A DNA stretch of 64,000 bases, from assembly GCA_009602725.1 (NCBI GenBank), contig WELB01000055.1, positions 15,209 to 79,208 on the forward strand. Reading direction: 5' to 3'. How positions within the stretch are numbered: the stretch's first letter is position 1; each line of letters starts with the position of its first letter. The translations under genes and the position numbers were made by a program. The stretch comes from Spirogloea muscicola (lineage: Eukaryota > Streptophyta > Zygnematophyceae > Spirogloeales > Spirogloeaceae). Of this stretch, positions 2,899 to 52,600 are shown piece by piece. Under the pieces are notes generated by a model. It was not told the origin of the DNA. It was given only the letters and a program-made list of their open reading frames with translations, and searched no databases.

Positions 2899-5232
2899 TC
2901 ACAACTCGCCCTCCCAGTAGTCCAGGTCAGCCTGCAGGCAGCTCAAGTCGGCCATGCCAACGGGGTCCGCCAGCGTCGTGAGGCTCGGAGCTGCTTGCCG
3001 GCTGACGGGCCGGCCCCAGACGGTCTCAGTCAGGCCGCTCTCGCCGGGCCTGGGGAATCCCTGCATCATGAGCTGCCCGATGCTACCTGGTCCACCATCG
3101 GAGCTTGCGCCAACGTCTGCTCCAGCGCCAGCACTGCCGCCAGCAGGTACCAGCGGCAGAGATCCGAGGGGGTTGAAGAGGATGCCCCTGAAGTGGCGCC
3201 CGCCAACCTCTGCGGAGAGCAGGAACCCTGCATCAAAGAGGCCGTCGATGACGCCCCGGACATCCGCACCGATCAGCGAGTGGGGCTGCCGGGCCGCTGG
3301 CCTGGCAAGCTCGGGTGCGGGAGCAACACGCGCCATGCTGTACTTGGGCTTCTTCCGGTGGCTGGGCGCCATGGTGGGTGGTGACGGCAGTGTCACGGGC
3401 TGCCACATGCTGGACTCGTGGACGATCACATCGTCCTGGGCTAGCTGCAGGACAAAGAGGTCGCCGAGCGGCACGTCGTTGTCGCCACACCTGCAACGGT
3501 GGAGACATGTCTCCCACGGAGACATATCACGCTGTTAGTGGAGCTGCTGCGCTGAGAGCCAGGACTACTAGTACGACTGCTATGAGGTGCTTGGCCGCCG
3601 AGTTGCATCTGTACCCGCCATACACAATGCTGGAGCTGCCGGCTTGAGTCGCTGAATGCGAGAAGCGGCCACGAGGCAGTGAGCCACAGACATCCAGAAG
3701 CGTCCACGAGCACAGGCTAATGTCCAGCATCCATACGTCGTTGTAGTAGGCTCGGTTCCCGACTCCTCCGAAGACATAGACCTGGCAGGCATCAGGGTAC
3801 ATCAGCGAGCAAGTACGAAGGCAGATGCCTCTCTCGTGCAGCCTGGGCGAGTGCGATGTGTGTGGCCTCTCGCTTGTCAGGAGGTGAAGTGGCGAGCACC
3901 TTACTCTCCCACGCGACTGCCGTGTGACCCGCCCTCGCGTCAGGGCAGTGCAGGCTGAGCGACTCTAGCTGCAGCCATGCACGATTTGGCGGCTCAGGCC
4001 AGCCAGCGAGCACCAATGAAGCACCCCTGCTCCCGACTGCACAGCACTCGGGCAGTTGCTGCCCCTGCCCTTGTCCTGCCGTGTAGCCCATTTGGGAGTG
4101 CTTGGACTGGACTTGTACTCAGGCATGCACGCCCCTCAGACCTCCAGTGGGAAGTAGCTACTAGTACCAACCCTTGACCACGTCATGGTTGCGAGGTCCA
4201 AGACGTCGATGTCGGCGAGGTATCTGTCGCCGCAGTCGCCCCCGAAGACGAGGAGCTTGTCGTCCACCAAAGCCGCCGCCTGGCTGTCCCTGCTGGTTGG
4301 AATGTCACCGCTGATCTCCGGGGAGCGCCACGCCATCTCATCCAGGTCCAGGAGGTGGACGTCGTTCAAGTAGGCGCCTTCGCCTTCGCCGCTGCCGCCG
4401 AAGACGAGCATCTTGCTGCCGTCCACAAGGACTGCGCTGTGGCTCTCCCTGGGAGCCGGGAGCTGGCCGGTGATGTTGGGGCACGTCCACTCCAGGGAGT
4501 CGAGGTCCAGGATGTGGACGTCGTTCACCTTGCGGCTGCCATCGGTGCCCCCGAAGACGACCATCTTCCTGCCGTACATGACGGCGCTGTGGCTGTCTCG
4601 CGGGCCAGGCAGCCAGCCGGCCGTCGCGAGCGGCGTCCAGCTCCACGTGGACGTGCTGAGCACGACGACATTGGTGAAGTGGTGCCCTCCGCAGCAGCCC
4701 TGCAGTGGCAGGACAGACGTCGGCGGCGATCAGCAGCAGCACCCCGACTTCTCGCACTCCAGTGCGGTCATCGCCACTGGGAGCCCTGTCGAGCGTCAAG
4801 CTTGCCGTTTCAAGCCAACAGATGGTTGGCAGCGGGCCCGGCCCCGCGGCCCGTCCGGGCGATTGAAGGACGCATCCACCCCATAACGGCAGCATTGGCT
4901 GGTCGCACTCCAGTCGATCACGGCCAGTGCTGGTCGCTGCGATCTGCACTGATGCTCTGCTGCTGGCTGCGCCAGATCGGCGAGCAGAGGCTGCCGGCGG
5001 CGAGCTGGTCGCGGCAGTGGGCAACCCCAGGCCGTACCCCGAAGACGAGCAGGTTCCCGTCGGAGAAGCAGGCAGAGTGGCCCCACCGCTCGGGAGGAGG
5101 CAGGCTCAGCGGCTCCGGCACAGTCCACCTCGCGGCTGCGGCCGCGCCAGCGCTGTGGGAGGCAGCAGCGTCGTGGCACGGCGGCGGGGTGTTGGCGGCG
5201 GCGGAGGCGGGGTCACGCGGCCGTCGCTGCAT
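2899..5232 (-). CDS. Kelch-repeat protein with a conserved C-terminal block
   Basis: Five exons join in phase: 5232-5038, 4699-4172, 3968-3900, 3781-3615 and 3490-2899, giving about 516 residues. All acceptors are AG and all donors GT. The first two-thirds is a Kelch beta-propeller; repeats show PR.SHSAV...M.VFGG, N(D)VH.LDLD...W and RAGHTAVAW. Successive repeats read LLVFGG, MVVFGG, MLVFGG, LLVFGG and VYVFGG. After the propeller comes a low-complexity linker and a block reading GVIDGLFDAGFLL..EVGGRHFRGILF. I associate that block with the C-terminus of some plant Kelch proteins, but its function is unknown to me. Kelch propellers usually bind proteins. There is no signal peptide or clear membrane segment, so it is probably cytosolic or nuclear. 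The start at 5232 is the least certain point, because upstream sequence is GC-rich and open. It is divergent from the Ca2+-ATPase, about 0.9 kb start to start. Confidence 0.8.
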
Positions 5233-5582
5233 GCTGGGGCCCGGGCGTGCGGAGGGGCGGGGCCGGGAGGGAGGCTGCCACCATGGAGGAGGCGGCGGCG
5301 GCGGCGGCGGCGGGGGAGGCGGCAGGAGGCGGTGGCGGCGGCGGTGGGCGAGGGGGTGGGCGTGGAAGGGAGACGGGGCGGGGGGAGCGCCACTCCCGAG
5401 GGGGAGCTGCAGGCGGGGGACCGACGGCCGGCGGGCTGGGGGGCCCGGGCCGCGATGCGAGAGGAGAAGCGGCTGCTGTCGTGACGAGAGCGGCGTGTCT
5501 TCTTGTGAGGGAGCCGCTTCGTTCCCAATCCTCTGCCTGTCCCTTCTGGGATCGCCGTTCCACGGGCCGCACCCGCCTGTCC

Positions 5583-5725
5583 GAGAAGAAGTGGCTCTCC
5601 CGATGGGGGCAAGGGCTGTGAGAAGAAGAAGAAGTGGCTCTCCCAATGGGGGCAAGGGCTGTGAGAAGCCAGCCCGGAAAGAATTGACAGGGTTCGAAGG
5701 GGCCAAACGACGAGCTGAGAGTCCG
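5583..5725 (-). repeat. LINE 3'-tail copy (type A) in the Kelch/Ca2+-ATPase intergenic region
   Basis: This is the reverse complement of the type-A LINE 3' terminus: a GAA-rich end, GGCTCTCCCAATGGGGG, the GGGCTG/CAGCCC stem-loop and AAGAATTGACAGGGTTCG. A partial second copy of the terminal 40 bases lies directly beside it (5585-5622), so the end was duplicated or two copies landed together. It sits in the space shared by two divergent genes. Confidence 0.85.
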
Positions 5726-5842
5726 AGAGGGGCGGAAAGAGGGGGTGGAGGGACGAGGAGCAGCGGCTGTGAGAAGGGCCTGCTGCCCTGCAAGCGGGGT
5801 GCAAGGGGACGCCAGATCAGGCCAGCACGAGGTGCGCGAGAA

Positions 5843-5890
5843 GCAAGCGCGGCCAGATTGAGGGGTGGCTGGGAGAGGCCAGCCCAAAGG
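5843..5890 (-). repeat. LINE 3'-tail copy (type B), short
   Basis: AAGCGCGGCCAGATTGAG followed by GGTGGCTGGGAGAGGCCAGCCC matches the type-B tail seen at 36.2, 36.5, 40.3, 40.5 and 47.6 kb. It is only about 50 bases long and lies about 250 bases upstream of the Ca2+-ATPase start. Confidence 0.7.
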
Positions 5891-6144
5891 AGCGGACGAG
5901 GTGTGAGGGCAGAGCACGGGCTGTGGTGCCTGACCGATGCGCGCCGGCCAGGGCCGGACGGCAGGCTCCAAGCGGCGGGGTACGGGGCGGCGGGCCCCAC
6001 GCGCGCGCCGCGCCGCCGGATGCGCGCCGCCATCGGACGGCCGTGGCCCCGCGCCGGCCGCTTCCAGAACGAGCGGCCCCCGGCGCCGCCCCTCGCCAAA
6101 GCCTGCCCGAGACGGGGCGGCTTCCCCAGCCNTCGCGCGCCCGG

Positions 6145-13160
<7,016 letters not shown>

Positions 13161-14832: not shown

Positions 14833-15138
14833 ACTGTAGCCGCCGCCGTAGCCCCCGAGAGAGGAGCCGTAGCCCCCGCCGTAGCGGCTGTAGGCGCCTC
14901 CGCCGTACCCGCCGCCCATGCCGCCGCCATAGCCGCCGTAGCCGCCGTAGCTGCTCAGGCCACTACTGTAGCCGCCGCTGAGGCCACCGTAGCCGCCCAC
15001 GCCGCCGCCGTAGGCAGCGGAGCCGCCATAGCGGCCGCCGAGGCCGCCATAGGCCGCTGCGCTGCCGTAGGCCCCGAGGCCGGCGGGCGAGGAGGCGGCG
15101 CCGGGGCGGTCCCAGGGCCGCNGAGGGCGACCCGACAT
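13925..15138 (-). CDS. PEX13: Peroxin 13, peroxisomal import docking protein
   Basis: Three exons, 15138-14644, 14418-14326 and 14173-13925, give about 278 residues. PEX13 is a peroxisomal membrane protein that docks the cargo receptors PEX5 and PEX7 during matrix protein import. The N-terminus has the plant-type opening MSGRP.PWDRPG, then a long Gly/Tyr/Met-rich region (YGG and GMGG repeats), then DPNDPNGGPPPQAPNFWQNM. Exons 2 and 3 carry the conserved membrane core FFGRLSILVDENTHALHFF and ITALLQLFDRAGVLYGELAR. There is no C-terminal SH3 domain, as in plants and unlike fungi and animals. A second ATG 12 bases upstream (15150) is in frame; I prefer 15138 because MSGRP fits the family. A single N at 15122 lies in codon 6. 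The sequence around the start codon is the edge of the 262-bp tandem array. Confidence 0.9.
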
Positions 15139-16483
15139 GGCAATCCGCATCCCCGGCGCCCAGCGCTGACCCCAACTGTACCGTCGGAGCGGCTGCGGAA
15201 GCCCCAGGCAGGTGGCTTCTCATCAGCTGGGCAGCCCAGCCGAGCGAGGGGGAACAGGCTAGGCTAGGCTCTGCCAACGGGCGGGGGGAGCGGAGAGTGG
15301 CTCTCCCGATGGGGCAAGGGCCAGCCCGTGTGACCAGCCAGCCAGCCCGAAGTACATACCGGCCGCCCATCCACATGTGCCAACGAGGGCGACCCGACAT
15401 GGCAATCCGCATCCGCGGCGCCCAGCGCTGACCCCAACTGTACCGTCGGAGCGGCTGCGGAAGCCCCAGGCAGGTGGCTTCTCATCAGCTGGGCAGCCCA
15501 GCCGAGCGAGGGGGAACAGGCTAGGCTAGGCTCTGCCAACGGGCGGGGGGAGCGGAGAGTGGCTCTCCCGATGGGGCAAGGGCCAGCCCGTGTGACCAGC
15601 CAGCCAGCCCGAAGTACATACCGGCCGCCCATCCACATGTGCCAACGAGGGCGACCCGACATGGCAATCCGCATCCGCGGCGCCCAGCGCTGACCCCAAC
15701 TGTACCGTCGGAGCGGCTGCGGAAGCCCCAGGCAGGTGGCTTCTCATCAGCTGGGCAGCCCAGCCGAGCGAGGGGGAACAGGCTAGGCTAGGCTCTGCCA
15801 ACGGGCGGGGGGAGCGGAGAGTGGCTCTCCCGATGGGGCAAGGGCCAGCCCGTGTGACCAGCCAGCCAGCCCGAAGTACATACCGGCCGCCCATCCACAT
15901 GTGCCAACGAGGGCGACCCGACATGGCAATCCGCATCCGCGGCGCCCAGCGCTGACCCCAACTGTACCGTCGGAGCGGCTGCGGAAGCCCCAGGCAGGTG
16001 GCTTCTCATCAGCTGGGCAGCCCAGCCGAGCGAGGGGGAACAGGCTAGGCTAGGCTCTGCCAACGGGCGGGGGGAGCGGAGAGTGGCTCTCCCGATGGGG
16101 CAAGGGCCAGCCCGTGTGACCAGCCAGCCAGCCCGAAGTACATACCGGCCGCCCATCCACATGTGCCAACGAGGGCGACCCGACATGGCAATCCGCATCC
16201 CCGGCGCCCAGCGCTGACCCCAACTGTACCGTCGGAGCGGCTGCGGAAGCCCCAGGCAGGTGGCTTCTCATCAGCTGGGCAGCCCAGCCGAGCGAGGGGG
16301 AACAGGCTAGGCTAGGCTCTGCCAACGGGCGGGGGGAGCGGAGAGTGGCTCTCCCGATGGGGCAAGGGCCAGCCCGTGTGACCAGCCAGCCAGCCCGAAG
16401 TACATACCGGCCGCCCATCCACACGTGCCAACGAGGGCGACCCGACATGGCAATCCGCATCCCCGGCGCCCAGCGCTGACCCC
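15123..16483. repeat. 262-bp tandem array in the PEX13/THOC7 divergent promoter
   Basis: Units start at 15123, 15385, 15647, 15909 and 16171, with a partial sixth at 16433-16483; the spacing is exactly 262 bases each time. Units are almost identical. I see CCCCGG versus CCGCGG near each unit start and one CACATG/CACACG difference. Every unit carries a copy of the PEX13 start-codon region (CGACCCGACATGG on +) and, in its second half, a degenerate type-A LINE tail (GTGGCTCTCCCGATGGGGCA ... CCAGCCCG). The near-identical translated ORFs across the array are only the repeat read in one frame. It could be a recent expansion or an assembly artefact. Confidence 0.95.
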
Positions 16484-16514
16484 AACGCCGCCGTGCTCCC
16501 CTTCCGAAGCCGCC

Positions 16515-26052: not shown

Positions 26053-26053
26053 C

Positions 26054-26125
26054 TCCGTTGCCGGGATTTGAACCCGGGTCGCCCGGGTGAGAGCCGGGTA
26101 TCCTAACCGACTAGACTACAACGGA
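26054..26125 (-). tRNA. tRNA-Glu, anticodon CTC
   Basis: A 72-nt cloverleaf on the minus strand. The acceptor stem is TCCGTTG/CAACGGA. The anticodon stem is CCCGG/CCGGG with loop CTCTCAC, giving anticodon CTC, which decodes GAG. The T arm is a CCGGG/CCCGG stem with loop TTCAAAT. The sequence is very close to plant nuclear tRNA-Glu. There is no intron and no encoded CCA. It lies directly next to a tandem repeat array. Confidence 0.95.
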
Positions 26126-38589: not shown

Positions 38590-38930
38590 GCCTCCTTCAG
38601 CGGTCTACGGCCCGCGCGCCGCACCTGCGTGCCGGCAGAGCCCTCGCTGCTGCCTCTGGCTCTGGCCAGGGGACCCGCTTCCAGGAGTCCAGCTTCTTTG
38701 GGGATAGTTTTCCGGCAGCTAGTCTGTCGGATTTGAGGCTCCTCACTCGTAACTACTGAGTGGTTCATCCTCCCCCGTTCTGCTATAGCATCTGCAGGCC
38801 CCTTAGCAGCTGCTTAGCGCCTTCTTTTTAAAGCCCCTCCATCATCCGGCCCCTTCAAACCTTGGTCAATTCTGTTTCGGGCTGGCTTCTCACAGCCCTT
38901 GCCCCCAATGGGAGTGCCACTTCTCTCTGA
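38590..38930 (+). mobile_element. LINE 3' end, 5'-truncated
   Basis: The frame ends FPAASLSDLRLLTRNY-stop (about 38700-38758; the frame shifts within the copy). It is followed by GTTCATCCTCCCCCGTTCTG and a type-A tail with GGGCTGGCTTCTCACAGCCC at 38879-38898 and a CCCCCAATGGGAGTGCCACT end. This copy links the LINE C-terminus directly to the dispersed tail. Confidence 0.85.
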
Positions 38931-39454: not shown

Positions 39455-39640
39455 AAGAAAGTGCTCGCCCATATAGGAGAGGAGCTCGCAAAGCCAGCCC
39501 CAAAAAACAATGTCCAAAAGGGAGAGGCTAGCCCAAAAGCAATGGACAAGGTCTCAAATTATAGAGAGAGAAGGGCTCGCCCATTGAGGATAGGGGCTGA
39601 AAAAGGCCAGCCCAGAAAAGAATGTACAAAGGACGAGAAG
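39455..39640 (-). repeat. Stack of type-C LINE tails
   Basis: At least two partial copies in the same orientation: GCTCGCCCATATAGGAGAG ... AAAGCCAGCCCC near 39462-39505, and GCTCGCCCATTGAGGATAGG ... GGCCAGCCCAGAAAAGAATG near 39571-39625. They are followed by the LINE fragment below. Confidence 0.7.
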
Positions 39641-39702: not shown

Positions 39703-40260
39703 GAAGAAGTGGCTCTCCCAATGGGGGCAAGGGCTGTGAGAAGCCAGCCCGAAAAGAATTGACAAGGTTCGAAGGGGCCAAACTACGAGCTAAGCAGCGA
39801 CTGCGGGGCCTGAAGAGGCTATGGCAGAACGGGGGAGGATGGACCGCTTAGTAGTTACGAGTGAGGAGCCTCACATCCGACAGACTAGCTGCCGGTAAAC
39901 TATCCCCCTGACGAAAGCCGGAGGCCGCAGCGAGAGCACGGCCAGCACGCAGATGCAAGGCGTGGGCCATGGACCGCTGGAGGGAGACGGACAAGCGCAT
40001 ACGATACACCTGAGCCCACGAGCCAGCGGCGTTGAAGTCAGCCGGCTCACCGCGCCTGCGGGACACAGCGCGCCGTGCAAGCCTGGCCAACAGGTCGAGC
40101 CAGTGGGATCCGAGAGCCCCATGCACGTCCACAGCCAGGGGGACGAACTCGTCGGCAGCCGGGTGGTCGGCGTGTTTGGCCGCCTTGCTGCGAGCGGCCT
40201 CAAATTTGGGCCAAACGAGGAGAGCCCACTTGCTTAAGGGCAAGGCATGTGAACAGACAG
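39703..40260 (-). mobile_element. LINE 3' fragment with intact C-terminal coding stretch
   Basis: The minus-strand reading frame (stop at 39848) encodes FVPLAVDVHGALGSHWLDLL, then FNAAGSWAQVYRMRLSVSLQ and finally ASLSDVRLLTRNY. The 3' untranslated region from 39847 down to 39703 is the type-A tail with stem-loop and CTTCTTCTT end. It is the cleanest example of how coding end and tail connect. The copy is 5'-truncated. Confidence 0.88.
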
Positions 40261-40321
40261 CGGAGGACCGGAGTTTGTCGTGACATGAATCTGACATTGC
40301 TGTTTCTGTTTTCGGTGGCAA

Positions 40322-40585
40322 GAAAGCAAGCGCGGCCAGATTAACTGGTGGCTGGGAGAGGCCAGCCCAAAGTGGCAAGAAAGGGCTGGATGGCGCAAAA
40401 AGGAAGGTACCAATCGCCCATTTTGGCACCCCAGGTCTCAAGGGCCATCGTATCCTCAGACCGTCACTGAGAGTTTGCTTACTGCTGTCTCAGTCCTTAG
40501 CACTCCGACTCCTTCAGACCTTGTCCATTCTTTTGGGCTGGCCTCTCCCAGCCACCAGTTAATCTGGCCGCGCTTGCTCTCACAA
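40322..40585. repeat. Two type-B LINE tails in opposite orientation
   Basis: A minus-strand copy at about 40325-40375 and a plus-strand copy at about 40475-40582. The plus copy starts further upstream (CTGTCTCAGTCCTTAGCACT) and includes CCTTGTCCATTCTTTTGGGC and the stem-loop. The plus copy ends about 195 bases before the HGH1 start codon. Confidence 0.8.
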
Positions 40586-45789: not shown

Positions 45790-47110
45790 GCGAGCATCTA
45801 GCAGCTACTGGAGCTGCTAGAGAAGTAGGGCAGCAGCAGTGGCAGGCGAAGGGATGGGGGGGAAAAGAAGAAGTGGCTCTCCCAATGGGGGCAAGGGCTG
45901 TGAGAAGCCAGCCCGTAAAGAATTGACAAGGTTCGAAGGGGCCAAAGTACGAGCTAAGCAGCAACTACCGGGCCTGAAGATGGGGAAAGGAGGGCCGGCA
46001 GAGCCCCTGGGGGTCTTTCCTGCGTCCGCTTCTGGAGCTGCTAGAGGAGTGAGGCAGTAGCAGTGGCAGGAGGAATGGAGGGGGGGGGGAAAGAGGGCCG
46101 GAAGTGCCGATTGGGGCGTTGCCGACCTGTCCTGCTGGAGCTGCGATAGGAGAGTGGGGCAGCAGCAGTGCCAGGAGGGATGGCATGGGGGGGAAGGACG
46201 GCCGGAAGTGCCGATGAGGGCCTTGTCGACCTGGCCTATGTCTGTTGCAGGAGCTGCTAGAGGAGTGGAGCAGCAGCAGTGGCAGGAGGGAGGGCGGGGA
46301 TGGAAAGGAAGACCGGAAGTGCCGATGAGGGCCTTGTCGACCTGTCCTGCGTCTGCTTCTGGAGCTGCTAGAGGAGTGGGGCAGCAGCAGTGGCAGGAGG
46401 GATGGCAGGGGGGGAATAGAGGGCTGGAAGTGTCGATGGGGCTTTATCGACCTGTCCAGCGTCCGCTGCTGGAGCTGCTAGAGGAGTGAGGCAGCAGTAG
46501 TGGCAGGAGAAATAATGGAGGGGGAAAGGAGGGCTGGAAGTGCCGCTGGGGGCCTTGTTGACCCGTCCTGCGTCCATTTCTGGAGCTGCTAGAAGAGTGG
46601 GAGGCAGCAGCAGTGGGAGGAAGGATGGAGGGGGTGGAAAGGAGGGCCAAACATGCCGATGGGGGCCTTGGCGACCAGTCCTGCGTCTGCCTCTGGAGCT
46701 GCTAGAGGAGTGGAAGCAGCAGCCGCAGCAGGAAGAATGACGGGGGGGGCGAAGGAGGGCCAGGGGTGCCACGGAGTGAAGGGAGCCGAGCCGATGGGGG
46801 CCTTGTCGACCCGACCTGCGTCCGCTTCTGGAGCTGCTAGAGGAGTGGGAGGCAGCAGCCGTGGCAGGAGGGACGGGACGGGAGGGAAGGAGCGGGAGGG
46901 CTGGGGCATTGGGGGCTAGGCCGAAGGGGCAGGACCTGCCGCCGCGAATGCCATGGAGCCAAGGGGAGCCGTGCCGACGGGGGCCTTGTCGACCCGTCCT
47001 GCGTCTGCTGCTGGGGCTGCTTGAGGAGTGGGAGGCAGCAGTCGTGGCAGGAGGGATGGCAGGGGGTGGGAGGGAGGGCTGGCATGCCGGGGCCGCCAAG
47101 GGCGGGGTAG
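45790..47110. repeat. Minisatellite, 103-184 bp spacing, at least nine units
   Basis: The landmark GGAGCTGCTAGAGGAGT recurs at about 46033, 46136, 46254, 46363, 46473, 46580, 46697, 46831 and 47015. Each is followed by a GGCAGCAGCAGTGGCAGGAGG-like stretch, and units share GGGGCCTTGTCGACC. Unit length grows toward the gap through internal insertions. An earlier partial unit lies at 45800-45862. Long open frames across it on both strands are a by-product of the repeat. Confidence 0.85.
45864..45978 (-). mobile_element. Tail-only LINE insertion inside the minisatellite
   Basis: Only about 115 bases of type-A 3' end are present (GAAGTGGCTCTCCCAATGGG to AGCAACTACCGGGCCTGAAG). Minisatellite sequence continues on both sides, and ATGGGGGGGAAA on the left resembles ATGGGGAAA on the right, a likely target-site duplication. 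Confidence 0.75.
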
Positions 47111-47629: not shown

Positions 47630-47930
47630 GAAGCAAGCGCGGCCAGATTAACTGGTGGCTGGGAGAGGCCAGCCCAAAAGAGTGGACAAGGTCTGGAGCA
47701 AGCGCGGCCAGATTAACTGGTGGCTGGGAGAGGCCAGCCCAAAAGAATGGACAAGGTCTGAAGGAGTCGGAGTGCTAAGGACTGAGACAGCAGTAAGCGA
47801 ACTCTCAGTAACCTCTCGTCAGTAGATGCAAATCTGAATAGTGTCTGGAGGAGTCGGAGTGCTAAGGACTGAGACAGCAGTAAGCGAACTCTCAGTAACC
47901 TCTCGTCAGTAGATGCAAATCTGAATAGCT
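47630..47930 (-). repeat. Tandem type-B LINE tails and an 85-bp duplication
   Basis: Two head-to-tail copies of AGCAAGCGCGGCCAGATTAA ... CCAGCCCAAAAGA.TGGACAAGG occupy 47631-47760. They are followed by two copies of GGAGTCGGAGTGCTAAGGAC to CAAATCTGAATAG, 85 bases apart (47766 and 47851). The second copy runs into the LINE coding end below. Confidence 0.8.
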
Positions 47931-49694: not shown

Positions 49695-52600
49695 CGTGAT
49701 TTGGCCCCTTCGAACCTTGTCAACTCTTTACGGGCTGGCTTATCACAGCCCTTGCCCCCATTGGGAGAGCCTCATTCCAAAGGTAGGCAAGGGTTACGAA
49801 AGGCCAGCCCGAGAAAGCCGGACAAGGAAATGGACTGAGAGAAAGTTTTCGAAGGGGGCGATAGCCGTGAAAGCAGAAGGGGCGAGAGCTAGGGTGAAAA
49901 CAGTAGGAAGTCGTGAAAATATACAAGCGCTGTCTCAGAGCTTGCCCGGTGGGATGAATCACTCAGTAACCACGAGTGAGGAGCCGCAAATCCGGAAGGA
50001 CTAGCAGCCGGAAAAGCAGCAGGAAGCCGGACGAGCGTCGGAAGAAAGAGAGAAAAGTGACTGTCCCGATGGGGGCAAGGGCTGTGAAAAGCCAGCCCGA
50101 AAAGAGGTGACAAAATCGAAGGGGCCAAGTGACGGAGGGGCCTAAAACGCTATGTCAGAACGGGTGTAGGATGGACCACTCAGTAGCTACGAGTGAAGAG
50201 CCTCAAATCCGACACTAGCTGCCGGAAAACAATCCCCCTGACGAAAGCCAGAGGCTGCAGCGAGAGCACGGCCAGCACGCACATGCTAGGCGTGGGCCAT
50301 GGACATGGTCGGTCCATGGTCGGAAGAAGGTGGCGCTCCTAATGGGGGCAAAGAGAAGTGGCTCTCACACCCCCGACCTGCGTGCCCAGGCACGATACAT
50401 GGTGCTGGTGGAGAAAGCGGCCTTTGACCAGGTGGTGGAGCTCCATCCTCAGCCTGACCTTCGAGGGCGCGCCCGGCTCCTCTCAGCTCCCCCCCCCCGG
50501 CGGCGGCCTGGTTATCAGCGCTCCCAATATACGCGGCGCTCACCATGCCAGACACGGTCGTCAGTACGGCGGTCCCCCGGCTCCTGGGCCTCCCTCCCTG
50601 CCTCGTTGGGGATAGTTTTCCGGCAGCTAGTCTGTCGGATGTGAGGCTCCTCACTCGTAACTACTGAGTGGTCATCCTCCCCCGTTCTGCCATGGCCCCG
50701 TAGTCGCTGCTTAGCTCGTACTTTGGCCCTTTCGAACCTTGTCAATTCTTTTCGGGCTGGCTTCTCACATCCCTTGCCCCCATTGGGAGGACCACTTCTT
50801 CCTCTTCTTCTTCGTTGGGGTCATGCAGTGCGAGTGCGGTGCCCGCCACGCCGACCCTGCGGAGCTGGCTGCACACATGCTCCGCTGCGCGCACGGCGGC
50901 GAGAGGACCGCTTCCCACGGCCTCCTGCGAGACGGCATGCAGGGAGTGTTCATGGAGGCGGGCTACAAGGTGGCGGTGGAAAATACGTCAATCATGCCCA
51001 TCTGGCTGGGCGCAGACGGTCAGCTCCACACCCGGCGCGCTGACCTAGTCGCCAACCCGCCCGGAGGAGGTCCGTGTATCATCGCGGATGTGGTGACCAC
51101 AGACACTTCGTCGACTCCGCCGCCCACCCCGCCAAGTCGGCGTCGACTGATGGGCAAGCTGTCGGTTTGCCTGCCCGGGGCAAGGAACGTAAGTACGCCG
51201 ACCAGGTGATAAATTCGCGGCCCTGGCCATTGAGGTCCAGGCTTTCGGGGCTTGCGGCAGTGGCTGGCTGGATCTCCTCCAGCGACTTGCCCGGGATGCC
51301 ATCGAGCGGCGGCCGGGTCTGCCAGGGGAGGTACAATTGTACATTCTTTTCTGGGCTGGCTTTTTCCAGCCCCTATCCTCAATGGGCGAGCCCTTCTCTC
51401 GGCTTCAATGCTGCCGGCTCCCAGCCCAGGTATTTCGCATGAGGTTGGCGGTCTCGTTCCAGCGCTCTCCATCTGCATCGTCTCGTGTTTTGTAGTGTAG
51501 TCCTTTTTCGGCCCTTTTTTTCTTTGGCTTTGTAAATTGTCCATTCTGTTTGGGCTGGCTTTGCCAGCTTCTCTTCTCCATGGGCGAGCACTTTCTTTCT
51601 CTCTGGCTCACGTGGTCCACACGCGCGCTTGCCGCGCTGTGGCTGCTGCCTCTGGGTCACGGCGGAGTGCCTCTTTCGCAGCTTCGAGTTATTCTGACTT
51701 GCTGTTGCTCACTCGTGGGTACTGAGTTTCCATCTGCATCATCTCGTTGTCTAGTTGTGTAGTTTTATCTTTTCGGCACCTTCTTTCCGAACCTTGTCAA
51801 TTCTTTGTGGCCTTTGGATATTGTCCATTCTTTTCTGGGCTGGCTTTGCTAGCCCTTCTCTTTTCTTTCTATGGGCGGGCAATTTTTTCTCCGAATGAGG
51901 GCAAGAGCTGTGAAAAGACAGCCCGAAAAGAATTGACAAAGGTTCGAAGGGGCCAAATGACGAAGAGGCCTAAAGTGTTATGTCAGAAAGGGTGTAGGAT
52001 AGACCACTCAGTCCCCCTTAGCCAGCTCATTACCCAGTTAACAGGACACTTGTAAGGCTAGATTTGGCCTCTCTTTCAATCTCATGCGCACCGCGCGCCT
52101 TCTCTCAGTAGCTACGAGTGAGGAGCCTCAATCCGACAAACTAGCTGCCGGAAACCAATCTCCCTGACCATCCCCTTCTCAGGCTGGGAAAGGAAGGGGC
52201 CAGGCGGGGGCAGGCGGGCCGTGTCCCCCCCGGACCCGCCCCGCCATTCTTCTTCGTGCTAGCCTTTTCCAGCTCCTATCCTCTATGGGCGGCCCTTCTC
52301 CGGGGCAAAATCTGGGCAATCTCCTATCGAGCTGGCTTTTCACAGCCATTGCCCCCATTGGGAGAGCCGCTTCTTCTCCGGGGAGGGAGGCCGGGAGAGC
52401 CGGGCCGGCACCGCACAGGCGTGCGCCGCTCGCATCGGGGCGCCGCCGCCGGCGCCGGCGCGCGCGCCCAGGCCAGTGGGCGGCGCCTTGCCGGCCCCGC
52501 CGCTGGCTCCGCTCCCGGGGCGCTGCCCGGCTTCAATGCTGCCGGCTCGGTAGCGCAGGTATTCCGCATGCGGCTGGCGGTCTTGTTCCAGCGCTCCCTG

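Follow-up and report, generated by a model that had tools for sequence, protein, structure and literature searches.

R2-like enzymes are now used for RNA-templated gene insertion. The R2Tg protein, as described in the available part of PMC12222951, needs the 3' 65-67 nt of its UTR for target-primed reverse transcription and binds the 3' 67 nt of that UTR, and donors with 67 nt integrate while those with 50 nt do not. Stringent-type LINEs, according to the part of PMC4176376 at hand, bind a 3' stem-loop. The RLE clades and their targets have been described, with HERO including many non-specific families (PMC4640811), and non-site-specific R2-like elements exist (PMC7650587), so that, as far as the available portions of both sources go, dispersal of such an element is not new in itself. 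The literature searched held no description of the element presented here, its coverage being partial and saying little on this point.

The window, that is, the whole 64-kb stretch of DNA that was analysed, contains many copies of a short conserved tail. We consider it probable that this tail is the 3' terminus of diversified R2-like LINEs encoding a reverse transcriptase (RT), a CCHC motif and a restriction-like endonuclease (RLE), and that it is bound by the encoded protein, presumably through the shape of its hairpin, for target-primed reverse transcription.

Occurrence and anatomy of the tail

The motif CCTTGTCMATTCTTTT matches the window 26 times at up to three mismatches, against a mean of 0.68 and a maximum of 3 in 100 dinucleotide shuffles. 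Demanding both the 5' arm of the hairpin (at most one mismatch) and the upstream box (at most five mismatches) gave 31 tails, and the first estimate of about 25-30 copies in 64 kb was a fair one. In the whole genome (eukaryotic, 153 Mb in 471 contigs), CCTTGTCMATTCTTTT has 2327 exact matches and the pattern ATTCTTTTN{0,3}GGGCTGGC has 9857, with reversed controls giving 0 in both cases. This excess over chance, in the window and genome-wide, confirms the original prediction of one conserved 3' terminus common to several LINE subfamilies. The window holds 9 exact matches to the longer pattern compared to a genome average of 4.1 per 64 kb, thus its tail density is only about twice that of the genome. 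Within the fetched loci, a looser box-plus-arm pattern matched 200 times versus 7 in reversed sequence, overlapping loci being counted twice. One region of 0.53 Mb (G000:C2:1532062-2065575) contains 36 exact motif matches, or about 67 per Mb where the genome as a whole averages 15 per Mb; this dense cluster might be pericentromeric.

Read from 5' to 3', the end of the LINE ORF (SD..LL[TS]R.Y*) is followed by a UTR of 48-85 nt and then by the box. After a gap of 0-4 nt comes the hairpin, which a spacer of some 10-15 nt separates from the conserved TGGNNGNGC; the element closes with pyrimidines, for example CTTTCTTC. The tail itself, comprising the box, the GC hairpin, the spacer and the pyrimidine end, spans about 65 nt (roughly 60-68 nt). 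At 39703-39767 on the minus strand it reads CCTTGTCAATTCTTTT C GGGCTG-gcttctca-CAGCCC TTGCCCCCATTGGGAGAGCCACTTCTTC. The features of the window discussed below are the following:

39703..39767, minus strand: type A tail, with the box at 39752-39767, the hairpin GGGCTG/CAGCCC at 39731-39750 and the terminal segment ...GAGCCACTTCTTC extending to 39703
39768..39847, minus strand: 3' UTR of the type A LINE, 80 nt, 5' of the tail; near random between families
39848..40201, minus strand: C-terminus of the LINE ORF in a 5'-truncated copy, ending SDVRLLTRNY*
40325..40371, minus strand: family B tail-only insertion of 47 nt (3 nt of the box T-run, hairpin, 3' end)
40315..40324, no strand: target-site duplication GTGGCAAGAA, first copy
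40372..40381, no strand: target-site duplication GTGGCAAGAA, second copy
40463..40578, plus strand: type B 3' UTR and tail, with the box at 40519-40534, the hairpin GGCTGG/CCAGCC and the 3' end GCGCTTGCT
39566..39631, minus strand: type D tail, with the box at 39616-39631, GGGCTGGCCTTTTTCAGCCCC and the end GGGCGAGCCCTTCTC
38689..38923, plus strand: second type A copy, with LINE C-terminus (stop at 38757-38759), 3' UTR, box at 38861-38876, hairpin and tail
47632..47928, minus strand: compound type B insertion, with a 3' UTR segment repeated (period 87) and the tail repeated (period 65), head to tail
51528..51596, plus strand: type C-like tail (GGGCTGGCTTTGCCAGCTT), the downstream part of a nested tail group at 51.3-51.95 kb

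The tails noted at 39.8 and 38.7 kb do follow a LINE C-terminus, as had been claimed: those at 38.86 and 39.75 kb come after SDLRLLTRNY* and SDVRLLTRNY*, respectively. Other genomic copies are homologous to the ORF end at 39848..40201 from around residue 34 of the 150-aa query onwards (33-34 in most matches), and a Pfam search with this 150-aa C-terminus gave no match. Frame ends of the SD..LL type occur at 10 places in the window, some of which chance may explain.

Rfam gave no match between 36000 and 54000 of the window, and Pfam, run on 8 window frames, returned Cation_ATPase_N in one and nothing else. That match lies in an 838-aa open frame (4178-6694). LINE tails at 5.6-5.9 kb overlap this frame, so that gene predictions may take up parts of LINEs. 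Among named proteins the best relative is a predicted one (P0001, eukprot SM000009S23618), which combines an aquaporin (MIP) match with in-frame segments from several of these LINE families; locus L046 is 100% identical to it over 44 aa, while a genome-wide search for a full-length match to it found none, the best reaching 71%. LINE tails account for many repeats of this genome, whose gene models may include fragments of LINEs. Arrays with periods of about 111, 135 and 221 bp adjoin LINE tails at 46018-46903. The window also carries a 262-bp tandem repeat (5.2 copies, 99% identical) at 15123-16486 and a tRNA-Glu (CTC) on the minus strand at 26053-26125.

Conservation between families and the hairpin

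In each of the families A, A2, B, B3, C, D and D2, the C-terminus SD..LL[TS]R.Y* is followed by the UTR of 48-85 nt and then by the tail. Comparing these families as single copies rather than consensus sequences, over 18 pairs of different letters, the between-family identity is 0.76 for the tail (shuffled 0.60), 0.68 for the last 30 codons (shuffled 0.59) and 0.61 for the UTR just 5' of the tail (shuffled 0.58), the latter being near random. This better conservation of the tail than of the adjacent coding end, with a UTR close to random between them, is the strongest evidence for function. The 3' UTRs of several subfamilies end in this element, which supports its earlier assignment to the LINE 3' untranslated region, and the suggestion that reverse transcriptase recognises it fits with its being the most conserved non-coding part between subfamilies. 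The tail is likely recognised by the enzyme of these LINE subfamilies.

Concerning the hairpin, the original prediction distinguished stem types A, B and C and argued that stems that differ in sequence yet stay paired reflect selection on structure. The stem sequences are as it described them, and further types exist (D, GGGCTGG/CCAGCCC, and the minor E, F and G), but they are not separate stems. All types share a near-invariant 5' arm GGGCTGGC and the core GGCTG/CAGCC in a single register, with only the outermost or innermost pairs gained or lost; pairs 1, 7 and 8 alone distinguish types A, B and C. The 3' arm was anchored by sequence in 175 of the 185 copies, the remaining 10 having no anchor. 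In these 175 copies, core pairs 2-6 are paired in 169, 167, 168, 170 and 171 cases (95-98%) because both arms are constant; for pairs 1, 7 and 8 the numbers are 117, 74 and 17. Among the 59 distinct arm pairs, the core is changed in 36, on both arms in 6, and in none of these 6 is the altered pair restored in register. In this set, 73% of in-register positions pair, compared to 16-52% when the 3' arm is slid by 1-3.

The proposed covariation check, run with RNAalifold on 22 diverse tails, recovered the 5-bp core only, with a covariation term of +0.19 and compensatory change at 0 of 5 pairs. With one common core and no compensatory pair, the argument from stems that differ yet stay paired fails. 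Since the core is invariant between families, covariation neither proves nor disproves selection; it is the wrong test for a stem held constant. The comparison with shuffled controls, also put forward at the outset, favours the hairpin: its segments are more stable than shuffles, with a mean z of -2.23 over 86 distinct segments, 55 of them below -2. The hairpin is able to form and is kept.

Several further candidates were discarded. A two-copy rescue at L006:561-640 (GGGCCGGC...CAGGCCC) re-pairs in a shifted register only, amounts to a single copy and is broken in the common register, and the T-A at pair 1 seen in two copies is, in its B-like context, a single change rather than a compensatory one. 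A second hairpin after the first (H1) is no better than shuffles at the 5% level in 11 of 11 types, the best being B3 (31/400). RNAfold of the C and D consensus sequences pairs the box with the terminal TGGGCGAG, and A/C at box position 8 had looked like a compensatory partner of a downstream T/G. As a general feature this helix was rejected: cognate duplexes reach -5.8 kcal/mol versus -5.4 kcal/mol for non-cognate ones, and 1217 of 5040 permutations are as good. Box shuffles fold as low in 13/500 for C, 28/500 for D and 33/500 for D2, which stand out, and type A does worse than nearly all its shuffles (497/500 as low); only in types C and D might the helix be genuine.

It is possible, although in our view rather unlikely, that recognition of the tail depends chiefly on its primary sequence (box CCTTGTCCATTCTTTT, arm GGGCTGGC, terminal TGGNNGNGC..TTCTTC) and that the hairpin is incidental or minor. 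The alignment, in which the box is as conserved as the hairpin arms, and the constant core without covariation are compatible with this possibility, as are the consensus folds of the whole tail, which are unremarkable in 8 of 11 types (not clearly above shuffles, z +0.09 to -1.95), only C, D and D2 falling below -3. It accounts less well for core pairs that are complementary in nearly all anchored copies, for a hairpin stabler than its shuffles and for the loss of pairing once the 3' arm is slid. Known relatives, moreover, recognise structured 3' UTR elements, as reported for R2Bm and R2Tg in the available text of PMC12222951 and for zebrafish L2 in that of PMC4176376.

Insertion marks and tail-only copies

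Family B copies have a constant 3' end and variable 5' ends, and identity among the best full-length matches is 99-100% over 145 nt. Of the 46 truncated B copies, 5 have flanking repeats of at least 10 nt (control with mispaired flanks: mean 0.04, maximum 1), 9 have repeats of at least 7 nt, leaving 37 without (mispaired 0.64, maximum 4), and 17 have repeats of at least 5 nt (mispaired 5.3, maximum 12). Three-quarters of the truncated copies have no repeat of at least 6 nt. In the 82 B flanks, the one family for which flank composition was determined, position +1 is a pyrimidine in 84% and position +2 in 83%, declining to about half by +7. The insertions end at the 3' end of the tail, are 5'-truncated and, in a subset, carry flanking duplications.

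In the mechanism that we propose, the protein would bind the tail on the LINE RNA, with the hairpin as the shape that it probably recognises. The RLE would nick a genomic site starting with pyrimidines, and the nicked strand would prime reverse transcription at the RNA 3' end, as in target-primed reverse transcription. Enzyme release at the hairpin or the box would leave many copies that stop within 30-90 nt.

Short copies are abundant. Family B 30-mers, four of them counted independently and with only one mismatch allowed, have 1316 genomic matches for the last 30 nt, 1127 for nt 31-60, 509 for nt 61-90 and 331 for nt 91-120 from the 3' end. The decrease from 1316 to 509 implies that about three-fifths of the B copies lack the block just 5' of the box and that the majority contain little beyond the tail. 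In 27 of the 46 truncated B copies the 5' end lies 30-60 nt from the 3' end, and in 13 of these at 47-51, directly 5' of the hairpin; the length distribution is biased, as the sample was mostly picked from copies without a neighbouring box match, and chance T-matches can move the ends by a few nt. A perfect tail-only case lies in the region of the original prediction, where the 47 nt at 40325-40371 are flanked by the 10-nt GTGGCAAGAA. Of 40 full-length B matches, 6 are followed by a second partial B tail no more than 100 nt downstream, and in 3 of them it lies within 10 nt. The compound B insertion at 47632-47928 consists of head-to-tail repeats, as template jumping could give.

The R2-like LINE subfamilies carry an unusual load of tail-only insertions. 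Tentatively, and with somewhat less than even confidence, we suggest that the enzyme docks on the tail and frequently does not move off it: synthesis would stop 5' of the hairpin or at the box, yielding tail-only insertions of 30-90 nt, and would sometimes restart on a second RNA, yielding tandem tails. An enzyme docked on the tail and often releasing or jumping after 45-90 nt would cover both kinds of copies. If so, abortive target-primed reverse transcription would have filled the genome with 'self-SINEs', whose length profile could be read as an in vivo map of enzyme release. Provided that the tail-only insertions are abortive products, thousands of them would mark the points at which the enzyme came off.

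Two other explanations were considered. The excess of tail-only copies could instead reflect decay or counting effects, for instance older copies with diverged upstream parts or subfamilies sharing the tail but not the UTR. The limit of one mismatch, the independent counting of the four 30-mers and the bias to short lengths of the 40 fetched B copies, most of which were taken from those lacking a nearby box match, all point in that direction, but the near-identity of the full-length B matches implies that decay is slight, and the short copies lie between unrelated flanks, with repeats of at least 7 nt directly at both ends in 9 of 46. We regard this explanation as unlikely. Still more doubtful is a spread of the tail between families by exchange of 3' modules, through template switching or gene conversion, as opposed to constraint acting on a 3' end that was inherited. 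Tails in tandem or nested arrangement are indeed common, as seen in the six full-length B matches with a second tail nearby and in the compound insertion, but tail type and C-terminal type go together in seven copies, A/A2, D/D2 and B/B3 being closest in both.

The encoded protein and comparison with known systems

The inherited 3' terminus that we favour belongs to a LINE whose protein could be compared with known retroelements. The genome's own ORF (L057, 718 aa) matches RVT_1 with 29.7 bits, just over the cut-off of 29.6, while its relatives reach 62 bits; its frame includes a YADDTTLVG motif in the RT, a CxC...H...C motif and an RLE-like R..D...D...K pattern. The ORF L058 had no Pfam match. 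Relatives of L057 (P0002-P0013) were found, with P0002 showing 40% identity over 87% of the query, and C492, C494, H507, C511, D577 and K607 are conserved in 11 sequences. A CCHC motif and a PD-(D/E)xK-type endonuclease are thereby predicted in the C-terminal part of the protein.

Compared with the PDB, a profile of P0002-P0013 and L057 matches R2 with an E-value of 2.6e-33, and a second stretch of this match, 788-938 on R2, spans the CCHC-RLE region (domain E-value 4e-5); a PDB sequence search with the L057 protein alone found no match. For the AlphaFold model of P0002 (pLDDT 83.9), the seven best fold matches are seven R2 chains, followed by human L1. The model of the genome's own ORF is poor (pLDDT 37.1) and was set aside, so that the fold evidence is that of the relative P0002. 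An N-terminal zinc finger (CPNC...H...C) is present in P0002, and the genome's own element is known without its full N-terminus. Among the fetched copies, no full-length intact copy of this element was recovered, and several contain long N runs; those inside the LINE copies L049-L052 (1091-4209 N per locus) make their long open frames artefacts. Judged by sequence and by the predicted fold, the element is an R2-like RLE LINE that is scattered over the genome and not tied to a single site. A different RT family (L009-L019) accounts for the 11 best RVT_1 matches, near-equal in score and mostly with open frames of 1172-1237 aa; no close match to the LINE tail was found within 1.5 kb of it.

Helitrons, too, typically carry a GC hairpin near their 3' terminus, and 60 of 171 tails have an upstream sequence unlike that of any other copy, but that the tails are Helitron 3' ends or SINEs instead of LINE 3' UTRs is highly improbable, given that the tail comes after an RT-RLE ORF, that B copies have target duplications, which Helitrons lack, together with variable 5' truncation, that the ends do not read CTRR as Helitron ends do, and that no sizeable upstream cluster is devoid of LINE coding sequence. 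A search for a partner SINE with the same tail, covering 171 tails and 276,501 non-N bases, found none, the head clusters without LINE coding sequence having only 4, 2 and 2 members.

Zepp and ZeppL form LINE clusters in green algae, Zepp being an L1-type element with poly(A). The nested, clustered LINE copies described here, in a genome of the green lineage, resemble them; unlike Zepp, the present element is of the RLE type and has no poly(A) end.

The stringent-type LINEs UnaL2, ZfL2-1 and ZfL2-2, as presented in the available part of PMC4176376, have a conserved 3' stem-loop tail with expected recognition by the LINE protein, and a conserved stem-loop 3' tail common to related elements is likewise found here. 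They belong to the APE-encoding L2 clade, unlike the RLE-type element of this genome. A further difference is that the tail is common to several subfamilies within one genome, with no partner SINE among the 171 tails.

The closest likeness is to R2. As in R2 (R2Bm, R2Tg) and the RLE LINEs NeSL, HERO, R4, CRE and Utopia, the RT is followed by CCHC and RLE in one protein, and R2 provides the best PDB profile and fold matches. Unlike R2, which defines its clade in the strict sense by one 28S rDNA site, the element occupies thousands of sites (9857 dispersed tails) rather than this or any other single target, and a pyrimidine-rich start is the only preference visible in the B flanks. Its 3' UTR closes with a compact RNA element of about 65 nt, a length that agrees with the 65-67 nt required by R2Tg, whose own element is placed likewise, as far as the available text of PMC12222951 describes it. 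Its diverged tails, which keep the box, the hairpin core and the end, offer a natural experiment on template choice by R2-like enzymes.
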